A stretch of 64,000 nucleotides of DNA. Origin: Shinella zoogloeoides. GTDB lineage: Bacteria; Pseudomonadota; Alphaproteobacteria; Rhizobiales; Rhizobiaceae. The DNA is taken from positions 1,801,001 to 1,865,000 of the forward strand of contig NZ_CP131130.1 in NCBI RefSeq assembly GCF_033705735.1, written 5' to 3'. The first letter of the stretch is position 1. Each line of letters opens with the position of its first letter. This document shows positions 15,673 to 56,107 of this stretch, in pieces. A program made the translations under genes and the position numbers. Below the pieces are notes generated by a model, which did not search any database, had not been told where the DNA came from, and saw only the letters and a program-made list of their open reading frames with translations.

Positions 15673-15750
15673 GCGCGCTTACCGGCGATCCACCTTTGCC
15701 CTCGGCTTTCGGACATGCTAGGCGGACCTGAAACAACAGGAACCCGGCCC

Positions 15751-16632
15751 GTGAGCGAAATCCGCCTCTACATCAGCACCACCGAGCAAAAGGCGGAAGC
15801 GGCGCTTTCGCTGATGAGCGACGCCTTCGAGGAAGAGGGCTACGCCATCGCCACGATGGAGATCGACGAGAAGAACGACGTCTGGGAAGCCTCCGTCTAC
15901 ATGTTCCGGCCGGAAGAGGCGGAGATCCACGAACGCTTCGCCGCCCTGCTCGCCGCCGATTTCCCGGGCGTCGAGATCCAGCGCGAGGTTCTTCCCGATA
16001 TCGACTGGATCGCCAAGTCGCTCGAGGGCCTGAAGCCCGTGCGCGCCGGGCGCTTCGTCGTGCACGGCTCGCATGACCGCGGCACGGCACGCGCCGGCGA
16101 GATATCCATCGAGATCGATGCCGGGCAGGCCTTCGGCACCGGCCATCACGGCACGACGGCGGGCTGCCTGGAAGTCATCTTCGACGTGATGCGCAAGCGC
16201 AGGGTAAAGCGCGCGCTCGACCTTGGAACGGGCAGCGGCGTGCTGGCGATCGCCGCGCGCAAGCTCGCCCCCATCCGGGTGCTGGCGACCGACATCGACC
16301 CCATCGCCACCCGCGTCGCGCGCGAGAACGTGCGCCTCAACGGCATAGCCTCGGGCATCGCGCTGGAAACCGCGCCAGGCTTCCACTCCACCGCCTTCGG
16401 CCGCCACGGTCCGTTCGATCTGATCATCGCTAATATCCTCGCCCGCCCGCTGATGCGCATGGCCCCGCAACTGGCGGCGCAGCTCGCCCCGAACGGCGAC
16501 GTCATCCTGTCGGGTATCCTCGCCTCGCAACGCTGGAAGGTGCTCGCCGCCTATAACGGCGCGGGCCTGCGCCATGTGAAGACCATCTGGCGCGAAGGCT
16601 GGGTGACGATCCACCTCGACAATCGCCGCTAG
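15751..16632 (+). CDS. prmA: Ribosomal protein L11 methyltransferase
   Basis: PrmA trimethylates ribosomal protein L11 using S-adenosylmethionine. The GTG at 15751 is chosen because the rhizobial family begins SEIRLYISTTEQKAEAAL; an ATG at 15715 would add twelve unrelated residues. The protein has 293 residues. The substrate-binding N-terminal domain is followed by AFGTGHHGTTAGCLE, SAM motif I LDLGTGSGVLAIAA and the methyltransferase motif DLIIANILARPL. It is a single gene, and a modest hairpin at 16658-16676 follows it. Confidence 0.93.
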   Translation: MSEIRLYISTTEQKAEAALSLMSDAFEEEGYAIATMEIDEKNDVWEASVYMFRPEEAEIHERFAALLAADFPGVEIQREVLPDIDWIAKSLEGLKPVRAGRFVVHGSHDRGTARAGEISIEIDAGQAFGTGHHGTTAGCLEVIFDVMRKRRVKRALDLGTGSGVLAIAARKLAPIRVLATDIDPIATRVARENVRLNGIASGIALETAPGFHSTAFGRHGPFDLIIANILARPLMRMAPQLAAQLAPNGDVILSGILASQRWKVLAAYNGAGLRHVKTIWREGWVTIHLDNRR

Positions 16633-16706
16633 GCTTCTCTCTCCCCATCTCCATCGCCCTCGGGCTCGCCCCGAGGCCATGGCGCGATGTCGACTGGAAA
16701 TCCGGG

Positions 16707-16863
16707 CAAAATAAAAGGCGGTGCCAGAGGCACCGCCTATGGACCGGCGAACCGGCCTGCCCGCGAGCTTGAGGAGGAGGAGTGCTCGAGCGGACCTATG
16801 TGTTCCGAGCGCCTTCCCGGAGGAGGGAGGAGGAGTGACCGGCAAGACGCCTGATCGGAACAC
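16707..16863 (-). ncRNA. Candidate trans-acting small RNA with loop-exposed anti-Shine-Dalgarno motifs (alpha-r14-like)
   Basis: In the 490-base gap between prmA and pepP, the minus strand folds into four consecutive hairpins. Hairpin 1 pairs 16855-16863 with 16800-16808 (9 bp perfect) and 16841-16850 with 16809-16818; its loop (16819-16840) is almost only CUCC repeats. Hairpin 2 (16761-16768 with 16784-16793, one bulge) shows another CUCCUCCUCCUC loop. Hairpin 3 (16742-16757) has a UUCG tetraloop. Last is a 10-bp terminator stem (16716-16738) followed by UUUUAUUUU. C-rich anti-ribosome-site loops are the hallmark of the rhizobial alpha-r14/NfeR1 family. The homology is inferred, and no promoter was confidently found. 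The rest of the gap holds no gene. Confidence 0.7.
16716..16738 (-). terminator. Intrinsic terminator of the candidate small RNA
   Basis: AGGCGGTGCC (16716-16725) and GGCACCGCCT (16729-16738) form a perfect 10-bp stem with a 3-base loop. On the minus strand it runs into UUUUAUUUU. No U tract exists on the plus strand, so it serves a minus-strand transcript, although no protein gene on that strand lies upstream. This is the key evidence for an RNA gene here. Confidence 0.85.
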
Positions 16864-17122
16864 CTAGCTATGTGCGACACGAAGGACTGGAGGAACTTTC
16901 ACTTCGTTTCGCTTGAAGCGCGTTTAAGTTCGCTTCGTTGACGCCGCTTATAATCGATAGAAAAAATAGAGATAGTCCCTTTTGCGTCATGGGTGCCATG
17001 CGCGGAGCGCATAAGTCCAATCTGAGACCTCTCGATCCGTCCGTATGCCCCACCCGCGTTTCCCTCCCTGCCGGGATCGGTTAGATTGCCGGGACGATTC
17101 ATCGCCTCACCGGAAGCCACCC

Positions 17123-18958
17123 ATGTTCCAGAGTTTCGACGTCACCTCCACGCCCCAGTTCGGCCGCGAGCGCGCGGATGCGCTGCGCGCCTCCTTCAAC
17201 ACGCTCGGCATCGACGGCTTCCTCGTGCCGCGCGCCGATGAATATCAGGGCGAATATGTGCCGGCCTCCGCCGAGCGCCTGTCCTGGCTGACGGGCTTTA
17301 CCGGCTCGGCGGGCGTCGCGCTCGTCATGCGCGGCGAGGCCGTGGTCTTCGTCGACGGGCGCTATGTCACGCAGTTCGCCGAGCAGGTGGATGGCGCGGT
17401 CTTCACCGGCGGCGACCTCGTCGGCGAACCGCCGCATCTCTGGCTGCAAAATCATGCGCCGAAGGGCTTCCGCCTCGGTATCGATCCCTGGCTGCACACC
17501 GGCGCGGAAGTGCGCCGGCTGGAAAAGGCGCTTGCCGGCCTCGGCGGCGCGCTCGTCCTCCTGCCGCACAACCCGCTCGATCGCATCTGGACCGGTCGCC
17601 CGAGCGAACCGCTCGGCCGCGTCGCCATCCAGACCATCGACCATGCCGGGGAGCTCGCCAGGGACAAGCTCGTGAAGATGGCCGAGGCGACGGCGAAAGC
17701 CGGCGCCGATGCCCTCGCCGTCACCGATCCCTCCTCCATCGCGTGGATCTTCAACATCCGCGGCAGCGACGTGCCGCACACGCCCCACCCGCTCGCCCGT
17801 GCCATCATCCCGGCGAACGGCCGCCCGCAACTCTTCCTCGACAAGCGCAAGACCGGCATCGAGCAGGAAGCCTATCTCACGCAGCTCGCCGACCTCGTGC
17901 CCCCCTCACAGTTCGACGAACGGATCGCGGCGCTGGCGGCCGAAGGCAAGCGCATCCTCGTCGACCCGGACCACGCACCCTTCGCGCTGGCGGAGATCGT
18001 CCGCAGCAAGGGCGGCACGCTCGTCGAGGCCGCCGACCCGGCCCGCCTGCCCCGCGCCTGCAAGAACGACGTCGAGCTTCAGGGCTCCGCCCGCGCCCAT
18101 CTCCAGGACGGCGCGGCCATGGTGGAATTCCTCGCCTGGCTGGACGGCACGCCCCCGGGAACCGAGACCGAGATCGCCGTCACGAAGAAGCTGGAAGAGG
18201 TGCGCCGCCGTGTCGGCGAGCGCCAGCAGAACCCGCTGAAGGACATTTCCTTCGACACCATCTCCGGCGCCGGCGCCCATGCCGCCATCATGCATTACCG
18301 CGTGACGACGGCGAGCGATGCGACGCTCGAACCGGGCACGCTCTTCCTCATCGATTCCGGCGCGCAATATATCAACGGCACGACGGACATCACCCGCACG
18401 GTCGCCATCGGCGCGGTGCCGGAGGAGCAGAAGCGCTTCTTCACGCTGGTCCTCAAGGGCATGATCGCCATCAGCACCGCCCGCTTCCCCAAGGGCACGC
18501 GCGGCTGCGACCTCGATCCCCTCGCCCGCATCGCCCTGTGGAAGGCCGGCGCCGACTTCGCGCACGGCACCGGCCACGGCGTCGGCTCGTATCTCTCGGT
18601 GCATGAAGGCCCGCAGCGCATTTCGCGGCTTTCGACGCAGGAGTTGCTGCCCGGCATGATCCTCTCGAACGAACCGGGCTACTATCGCCCCGGCAGCTTC
18701 GGCATCCGCATCGAGAACCTCGTCCACACCCTGCCGGCCGCGCCCGTCGAGGGCGGCGATATCGACATGCTCGGCTTCGGGACGCTGACCTTCTGCCCCA
18801 TCGACCGCCGCCTCGTCGTGCCGGCGCTGATGACGGAGGAGGAGTTCGCCTGGCTTAATGCCTATCACGCCGAAACGCGCGAAAAGATCGCGCCGCTCCT
18901 TTCGGACGACGCGACGAAGGCATGGCTGGAAAAGGCGACGGCTCCGATCAGCCGATGA
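17123..18958 (+). CDS. pepP: Xaa-Pro aminopeptidase (M24 family, large form)
   Basis: This is a cytoplasmic metallopeptidase of 611 residues that removes N-terminal residues before proline. Like eukaryotic aminopeptidase P it has two creatinase-like N-terminal domains (about 1-310) before the catalytic pita-bread domain. The metal ligands are seen in LFLIDSGAQYINGTTDITRT (two Asp), FAHGTGHGVGSYL (His), LSNEPGYYRPG (Glu) and IRIENLV (Glu). GGAAG precedes the ATG at 17123. Its stop overlaps the 3' end of the convergent azlD by 11 bases. Confidence 0.94.
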   Translation: MFQSFDVTSTPQFGRERADALRASFNTLGIDGFLVPRADEYQGEYVPASAERLSWLTGFTGSAGVALVMRGEAVVFVDGRYVTQFAEQVDGAVFTGGDLVGEPPHLWLQNHAPKGFRLGIDPWLHTGAEVRRLEKALAGLGGALVLLPHNPLDRIWTGRPSEPLGRVAIQTIDHAGELARDKLVKMAEATAKAGADALAVTDPSSIAWIFNIRGSDVPHTPHPLARAIIPANGRPQLFLDKRKTGIEQEAYLTQLADLVPPSQFDERIAALAAEGKRILVDPDHAPFALAEIVRSKGGTLVEAADPARLPRACKNDVELQGSARAHLQDGAAMVEFLAWLDGTPPGTETEIAVTKKLEEVRRRVGERQQNPLKDISFDTISGAGAHAAIMHYRVTTASDATLEPGTLFLIDSGAQYINGTTDITRTVAIGAVPEEQKRFFTLVLKGMIAISTARFPKGTRGCDLDPLARIALWKAGADFAHGTGHGVGSYLSVHEGPQRISRLSTQELLPGMILSNEPGYYRPGSFGIRIENLVHTLPAAPVEGGDIDMLGFGTLTFCPIDRRLVVPALMTEEEFAWLNAYHAETREKIAPLLSDDATKAWLEKATAPISR

Positions 18959-55706: not shown

Positions 55707-56107
55707 TTTTGCCAGTTGGCCTGTAAGCCGGGTTCTGTATGGCTCCGGCTTTCGCCGGAACGTGGCAGCCATTCATCTGGGACCGGACTTGCGCCCGGCC
55801 TCTTGCAACCCACCCGGATGACCGGCCCGGAAACAGGCTGAACCGCTTGCGCGGTTCGCGTCATCCCTATTCGGTTTTGCTCCCGGTGGGGTTTACCTTG
55901 CCGTCCATGTCGCCATGGCCGCGGTGGGCTCTTACCCCACCCTTTCACCCTTACCTTCCGAGGAAGGCGGTTTGCTTTCTGTGGCACTTTCCCTGGGGTC
56001 GCCCCCGCCGGACGTTATCCGGCACCGTGTTTCCGTGGAGCCCGGACTTTCCTCACCCTGCGGCCTTTCGACCCTTGCAAGGCGCGGCTGCCCGGCCAAC
56101 TGGCAGG
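55707..56107 (-). ncRNA. rnpB: RNase P RNA
   Basis: This is the catalytic RNA of RNase P, about 400 nt, bacterial type A. The ends pair as P1: TGCCAGTTGGCC (56105-56094) with GGCCAACTGGCA (55721-55710). The 5' part holds GGGCAGCCGCGCC and the universally conserved GAGGAAAGUCCGGGCUCC, the centre has ACAGAAAGCAAACCGCC, and the 3' end reads ACCCGGCUUACAGG. It lies between an FAD oxidoreductase gene and mraZ on the same strand. A short U-containing stretch follows; no clean terminator stem is evident. Confidence 0.96.

Follow-up and report, generated by a model that had tools for sequence, protein, structure and literature searches.

Which product, if any, is encoded on the minus strand of the gap between two plus-strand genes of Shinella zoogloeoides, to which family it belongs and from what it arose are the questions raised by the locus described here. 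The locus lies in a 64,000-nucleotide stretch of contig NZ_CP131130.1, analysed as a whole and referred to as the window, between two open reading frames (ORFs) which we take to be prmA and pepP. The prmA product is 99.7% identical to its counterpart in S. zoogloeoides PQ7. Read on the minus strand, the gap contains, in this order, a LysR-type box, a -10 hexamer, a leader, an RNA of four hairpins and a terminator with its U run (Table 1). A preliminary description of the sequence had placed an intrinsic terminator at 16716-16738 of this strand and had reported no protein gene upstream of it. The terminator was confirmed: the hairpin AGGCGGUGCC-UCU-GGCACCGCCU at 16738-16716 is followed by UUUUAUUUU. 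As to the second statement, long minus-strand ORFs are listed (e.g., 15718-16863), but this one is antisense to prmA and is regarded as mechanical.

Table 1. Features of the prmA-pepP gap and of its flanks (window coordinates).
Feature	Position	Strand	Description	Basis
prmA	15715..16632	+	flanking, convergent with the RNA	ORF listing
Intrinsic terminator hairpin and U run	16707..16738	-		sequence, fold, covariation, conservation
Hairpin 3	16742..16757	-	small, without anti-Shine-Dalgarno motif	fold and covariation
Hairpin 2	16759..16796	-	stem CCGCUYGAGC/GCUCGCGG, loop ACUCCUCCUCCUCA	fold and covariation
Hairpin 1	16800..16863	-	two stacked helices, loop UCACUCCUCCUCCCUCCUCC	fold and covariation
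ORF-end-like stretch (putative)	16855..16869	-	AGC TAG GTG TTC CGA vs AGC TAC GTA TTC TGA; now mostly 5' arm of hairpin 1	
Predicted 5' leader	16870..16941	-	predicted start near 16941, placed 7 nt past the -10	
ORF-start-like stretch (putative)	16889..16902	-	GTGAAAGTTCCTCC vs ATGAAAATGTCCTCC in Rhizobium alarense	alignment
-10	16948..16953	-	TTATAA; CTATAA, TTATAA, GTATAA or CTATAT in relatives	conserved
LysR-type (LsrB/VtlR-like) box	16989..17012	-	ATGC-N7-GCATGGCACCCAT	alignment of relatives
pepP	17123..18958	+	flanking, divergent; start codon chosen within ORF 17045-18958	ORF listing

The 157-nt stretch formed by the hairpins and the terminator folds at -77 kcal/mol, compared with a mean of -52.9 for 200 dinucleotide shuffles (z -6.1), none of which was as low. 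CUCCUCC tracts occupy the loops of hairpin 1 (16838-16819) and hairpin 2 (16783-16770), and the predicted fold shows these loops open: the mean unpaired probability is 1.00 for the CUCCUCC at 16835-16829 and 0.999 for the one at 16782-16776, while that at 16825-16819 extends into the stem (0.72). The terminator had been said to be preceded by three stems, two of them with CUCCUCC loops; the two open loops stand, and the stems are now counted as four hairpins, among them the terminator itself and a small, motif-free hairpin (16757-16742). At least two open CUCC tracts were present in 61 of 66 loci, each folded singly. The motif CCTCCTCC alone is common (631 occurrences in the 5.79-Mb genome). 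CTCCTCC occurs 19 times in the window, compared with 11.4 expected, a count of 19 or more being reached in 3 of 100 shuffles; five of the 19 are located at the RNA locus. It is the structure together with its conservation that goes beyond chance, not the CUCCUCC motif by itself.

Regarding conservation, the 157-nt stretch was matched in all 20 Shinella genomes (the window's own included) among the 101 genomes searched. With gaps counted as differences, the mean identity to the window over the 19 other Shinella genomes was 0.95 for the RNA, 1.00 for the terminator and 0.92 for the -10 and leader, whereas outside the unit it dropped to 0.29 immediately downstream of the terminator and to 0.40 upstream of the box, most rows reaching about 60 bases above the box. 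Since identity is high inside and low outside, the RNA is a bounded unit. Compensatory changes in the stems among relatives, proposed as a check in the preliminary description, were observed. Among the 20 distinct sequences of a close alignment, standard pairs make up 98.9% of the base-pair cells, and 12 of the 46 base pairs change on both sides, neither value being reached by any of 500 shuffles; when the pairing partners were slid as a control, one to three pairs changed on both sides. A wider alignment of 54 rows, which is model-fitted and leans towards structure, has 38 of the 46 pairs changing on both sides. The close alignment comprises 22 of 23 aligned loci, L043, whose RNA duplicates that of L042, being excluded; the weak matches L062-L064, and L065 as the second piece of one contig, had been dropped beforehand. 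The wide alignment draws on 53 sources of 56 family loci, with the window replacing L068 and with L084, L121 and L123 left out, and one of its rows, an opposite-strand match in L073, is probably spurious. In view of the covarying base pairs, it was ruled out that the RNA is a coding sequence. Judged from its sequence, the prmA-pepP gap probably encodes, and is presumed to express, a small RNA in Shinella.

The same RNA was sought in the genomes of relatives with two covariance models, R1 and R2; seven to ten candidates were scored per genome, so the match counts are lower bounds. R1 matched 56 of 297 family genomes, representing 22 of 109 genera, at E <= 0.01. Either or both of prmA and pepP flank 55 of these 56 loci (both in 46), which corresponds to 21 of the 22 genera; the sole locus without such a neighbour is a true ar14 (87 bits). 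R2 added one genus (g15) and matched 127 of 394 family genomes at E <= 0.01, 92 of them below 1e-7 according to our own count; the weaker ones are not claimed. Its matches in eight genomes outside the family (14 matched of 297 from the order) all had E values of 0.0028 or worse and are attributed to chance. A DNA pattern of hairpin 2 was found on 63 contigs from Shinella, Sinorhizobium (including S. meliloti and S. medicae), Ensifer, Rhizobium, Pararhizobium and other Rhizobiales, and all 63 loci adjoin prmA or pepP (57 adjoin both). One family genome and S. meliloti 4H41 have identical RNAs. The window's own genome has one convincing copy: R1 at E <= 10 gives four matches there, the others being the same site read on the opposite strand (0.15), and two weak matches (1.3 and 4.3). 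Genus g124 (L116, L119 and L120) has the RNA beside prmA, no pepP in the 1.5-kb flank, and three aSD (anti-Shine-Dalgarno) loops; L116 and L120, both scanned, score just above the ar14 cut-off.

The box upstream of the RNA is shown in 21 of the 23 aligned sequences, and a looser form of its motif lies upstream in 51 of 66 loci. Its T-N11-A part, at 17011-16999, is a sequence match with predicted binding and lies at about -70 to -58 from the predicted start, which corresponds to the position of about -72 to -60 expected of ar14/NfeR1 and given for the LsrB box of NfeR1 (-72 to -60) in a portion of PMC10746234. The 48 bases from GCAT to the -10 equal the spacing before the ar14 copy L003 of the same genome; before copy L002 the spacing is 46-48, according to the hexamer chosen, and no such box was found in the 150 bases inspected at copy L001. 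The window box departs from the published VtlR consensus GCAT-N3-TG-N3-T (passage in PMC7486931) by having AC for TG. The box pattern has nine matches in the genome, at eight places, and only two of these places precede aSD RNAs. No -35 element was recognised at the window locus. At first sight the box resembles a sigma-54 element (-24/-12); this reading was rejected, the second half not being conserved. The box suggests control by LsrB/VtlR and a primary transcript of about 235 nt. The proposal that a longer form of the RNA is possible gains support from the conserved -10, which precedes hairpin 1 by about 85 bases. AbcR1/AbcR2 and VrsA, which are sRNAs activated by LsrB/VtlR, possibly have the activator in common with the window RNA; they are nevertheless other RNAs, and the window RNA gave no Rfam AbcR-family match.

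As to its family, the RNA had been proposed to be a member or a functional analogue of ar14/NfeR1. It scored 17.5 bits with the Rfam model for ar14 (RF02344), below the cut-off of 58.8 bits, and is therefore not filed as ar14, whereas the three ar14 copies of the genome that exceed the cut-off scored 124.8, 101.6 and 93.5 bits. The proposed membership was given up on this score and on the terminator loop, which lacks the aSD motif present in the three true ar14 copies. While ar14 is characterised by three hairpins, each with an aSD loop, two of the four hairpins carry the motif here, the terminator loop is UCU and there is an extra hairpin; the window RNA further differs from ar14/NfeR1 in being a single copy at a syntenic place and in having one almost invariant stem. 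Both have open CUCCUCC loops, a terminator, the box-to-(-10) distance of L003 and, probably, the mode of action. Regarding the 13 same-place loci scanned, eight matched ar14, with 60.0, 59.0, 55.0, 53.1, 52.8, 49.9, 39.3 and 32.7 bits (two over the cut-off), and five, including the S. meliloti type, had no ar14 match at E <= 1. In some same-place loci there are three aSD loops, the terminator bearing one. The graded scores at the same place argue for common descent, and shared ancestry of the window RNA with ar14/NfeR1 is likely. The open aSD loops, covarying stems, terminator, box spacing and same-place loci near or at the ar14 model bear out the other half of the proposal, a functional analogue. 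That the RNA is a typical ar14 copy which the Rfam model merely scores badly is most improbable; the graded scores of up to 60 bits at this place would agree with it, but the three copies over the cut-off score 93-125 bits, and the window RNA, with its extra hairpin and a terminator loop devoid of aSD, has its own syntenic place and one copy in the genome.

Cuckoo RNAs, described in part in PMC3927594 and PMC10746234, consist of two to four adjacent hairpins, each with a CCUCCUCCC loop, and have variable stems. Compared by this description, the window RNA resembles them in its adjacent hairpins with CCUCCUCCC-type loops; loop 1 is exact, loop 2 is one base off in Shinella (CCUCCUCCU), and the stem of hairpin 2 is not variable. 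An exact cuckoo motif of the CCUCCUCCC type occurs in 54 of 66 loci. At the gathering threshold of Rfam, the window yielded only RNase P RNA, at another place (class A, 55708-56103, minus strand, 310.5 bits), which is ordinary. A match of the window RNA to sot0042 (9 bits, E 9.5) was dismissed as chance.

The origin of the RNA is suggested by other genera, in which an ORF of about 50-60 amino acids lies between promoter and RNA. By tblastn it is present in 15 of 56 loci (8 genera) and absent from the other 41, as from the window; it was also seen in nine of ten further hand-picked loci and in one of the 63 hairpin-2-pattern loci (Rhizobium alarense), a set whose pattern closely resembles the ORF-less version. 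The ORF runs into the 5' end of the RNA in 12 of the 15 loci; its last codons there typically read AGC TAC GTA TTC TGA (S Y V F stop) and form the 5' arm of hairpin 1. The ORF of R. alarense terminates a little ahead of the RNA. Shinella has no ORF, and segments resembling both of its ends remain. The third CUCC that had been noted near 16890 is present (UUCCUCCAG, 16895-16887) and can be read as part of the ORF-start remnant. This likely origin from a small-protein gene, with the third CUCC as a remnant, is new relative to the preliminary description. In a profile comparison the ORF matched the DUF1127 proteins encoded in the window's genome (probability 93.5%, E 2.4e-7), and the name DUF1127/YjiS is attached to three of the 120 relatives listed. 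No match to Pfam DUF1127 was obtained for eight ORF products at E up to 10, nor any NCBIfam match for three; the label is therefore limited to 'DUF1127-like'.

The history of the ORF was examined on a tree of prmA and pepP, for which only loci with both flanks were used (46, then 55 including nine of the ten further loci, L223 being left out). On the 55-locus tree the ORF state needs at least five changes (4-6 in bootstraps), two of which are forced by starred branches. A single clade of ORF-less loci is rejected (p-AU 3.6e-5), the clade for this test having been chosen after the earlier 46-locus tree. R. alarense groups with Shinella and two ORF-less genera (support 96/96). The 55-locus tree gives no direction of change; repeated loss is favoured because of the ORF-end remnants and the published association of DUF1127 with CcsR (CIN1; part of PMC10253847), from which we infer that the changes are losses. 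These data suggest that the RNA began as the 3' end of the mRNA of a DUF1127-like small protein, and that the ORF was lost in Shinella, and would have been lost separately in other genera, while promoter, leader and RNA were retained. Under a contrasting explanation, the RNA is no more than the 3' end, terminator included, that is left of a decayed DUF1127-like mRNA; it would have been retained for the sake of stability or termination and be devoid of trans activity. The probable descent from a DUF1127-like locus would fit, but the ORF-less genera, with no recognisable ORF to protect, still have the promoter, the leader, the covarying stems and the CUCC loops, on a tree that needs at least five state changes (two if only starred branches count); this explanation is considered very unlikely. 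About an even chance is given to the fuller version of the loss scenario, by which a dual locus of DUF1127-like mRNA and 3' aSD sRNA was repeatedly reduced to the sRNA, the coding tail and stop being left only as a hairpin arm, selection keeps the RNA and not the protein, and hairpin 2 has a further sequence-specific function. At L225 (G397), the last codons of the ORF are followed at once by a near-copy, one copy serving the ORF and the other the hairpin arm.

Comparable units are known. The CIN1 locus consists of a short DUF1127 protein gene and a CcsR-like sRNA (passage in PMC10253847); in the other genera the RNA likewise directly follows or overlaps the DUF1127-like ORF, whereas the window locus differs by having none. 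CcsR1-4/ccaF1 of Rhodobacter sphaeroides also combine aSD-loop RNA with a DUF1127 transcription unit, but they comprise four RNAs under an RpoHI/RpoHII promoter (same source, in part), whereas the window locus has one RNA and a LysR-type box; the window RNA did not match CcsR1 (RF02791, cut-off 65.3 bits) at E up to 10. Within the window's genome, each of the three ar14 copies lies within about 0.6 kb of DUF1127 genes. Two ar14 copies are arranged in tandem with two DUF1127 genes at C1:1236143-1237403 (L193, L195, L001, L003), and one lies behind a third DUF1127 gene at C2:72252-72731 (L194, L002). L197 (C2:314618-314725) is a DUF1127 gene with, as judged by eye, an ATGC/GCAT-rich region before it and one CUCC-loop hairpin with a terminator after it, and is possibly another protein-plus-aSD-RNA unit. 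The window locus may belong to a series of DUF1127/aSD-RNA neighbourhoods, being the member that lacks the ORF.

The explanation preferred with good confidence is that of a trans-acting, cuckoo/ar14-like aSD sRNA which would block translation and which has outlived its parent DUF1127-like small-protein gene. With a LysR-type activator (LsrB/VtlR), transcription would begin near 16941 and stop at the terminator (16716). The primary RNA of about 235 nt would probably be trimmed to a form of about 157-163 nt that starts near hairpin 1, and its two unpaired CUCCUCC loops would pair with the Shine-Dalgarno sequences of many mRNAs, blocking their translation. By analogy with NfeR1, the presumably LsrB/VtlR-activated RNA would damp the translation of mRNAs with strong Shine-Dalgarno sequences under stress or nutrient change. 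For NfeR1, portions of PMC10746234 and PMC7143759 report that the aSD motifs are redundant seeds silencing target mRNAs, and that ntrB is repressed at the translation initiation region.

The stem of hairpin 2 calls for a further consideration. Its commonest pair is kept in about 90% of the lettered cells of the wider alignment, compared with about 65% in the outer and 43% in the inner helix of hairpin 1 (our own counts), and CCGCTYGAGC was found in 51 of 66 loci. The stem is kept in sequence and not in pairing alone, which loop presentation by itself does not explain; being near-invariant, unlike the variable stems of ar14 and cuckoo RNAs, it hints at a sequence-specific partner. The RNA might accordingly act mainly through hairpin 2, by binding another RNA or a protein (e.g., a DUF1127/CcaF1-type RNA-binding protein encoded elsewhere), with the CUCC loops secondary; CcaF1 of Rhodobacter binds RNA and aids the maturation of CcsR sRNAs (passage in PMC10253847). 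The loops are, however, conserved at least as well (identity 1.00 at 16835-16816 across the 19 other Shinella genomes), and in the NfeR1 studies cited above mRNAs are silenced through such aSD loops. Action mainly through such a partner is rated unlikely, and the aSD sRNA blocking translation is retained as the preferred explanation.

Shinella, Sinorhizobium, Ensifer and other Rhizobiaceae share this conserved sRNA locus, whose window copy falls below the threshold of Rfam 15. As several lineages seem to have lost the protein but kept the RNA, it constitutes a natural experiment on DUF1127-sRNA units, i.e., on which half works. Regarding atu1667, a VtlR-activated small gene of Agrobacterium, a passage of PMC7486931 states that it is unknown whether the protein or the RNA acts; the VtlR-regulated small proteins of Brucella are called DUF1127 proteins (PMC12595884). 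S. meliloti carries the ORF-less form, and tests are therefore possible in a laboratory symbiont. No account of an RNA in the prmA-pepP gap was found in the literature searched on Sinorhizobium and Shinella sRNAs and on CCUCCUCCC sRNAs, and nothing pertinent in that on the evolution of UTR-derived sRNAs, although supplementary sRNA tables for S. meliloti may list it; the terms prmA, pepP and aminopeptidase are absent from the main texts of PMC2573895 and PMC2873474, and from PMC3927594. General background is provided by parts of PMC12501420, PMC11975290 and PMC12218461.

Across the ORF remnant of the window, a frame running from GTG to TAG (GTG AAA GTT ... AGC TAG, 16902-16864) is open, as it is in several other Shinella; it probably arose by chance and could be a mini-ORF.
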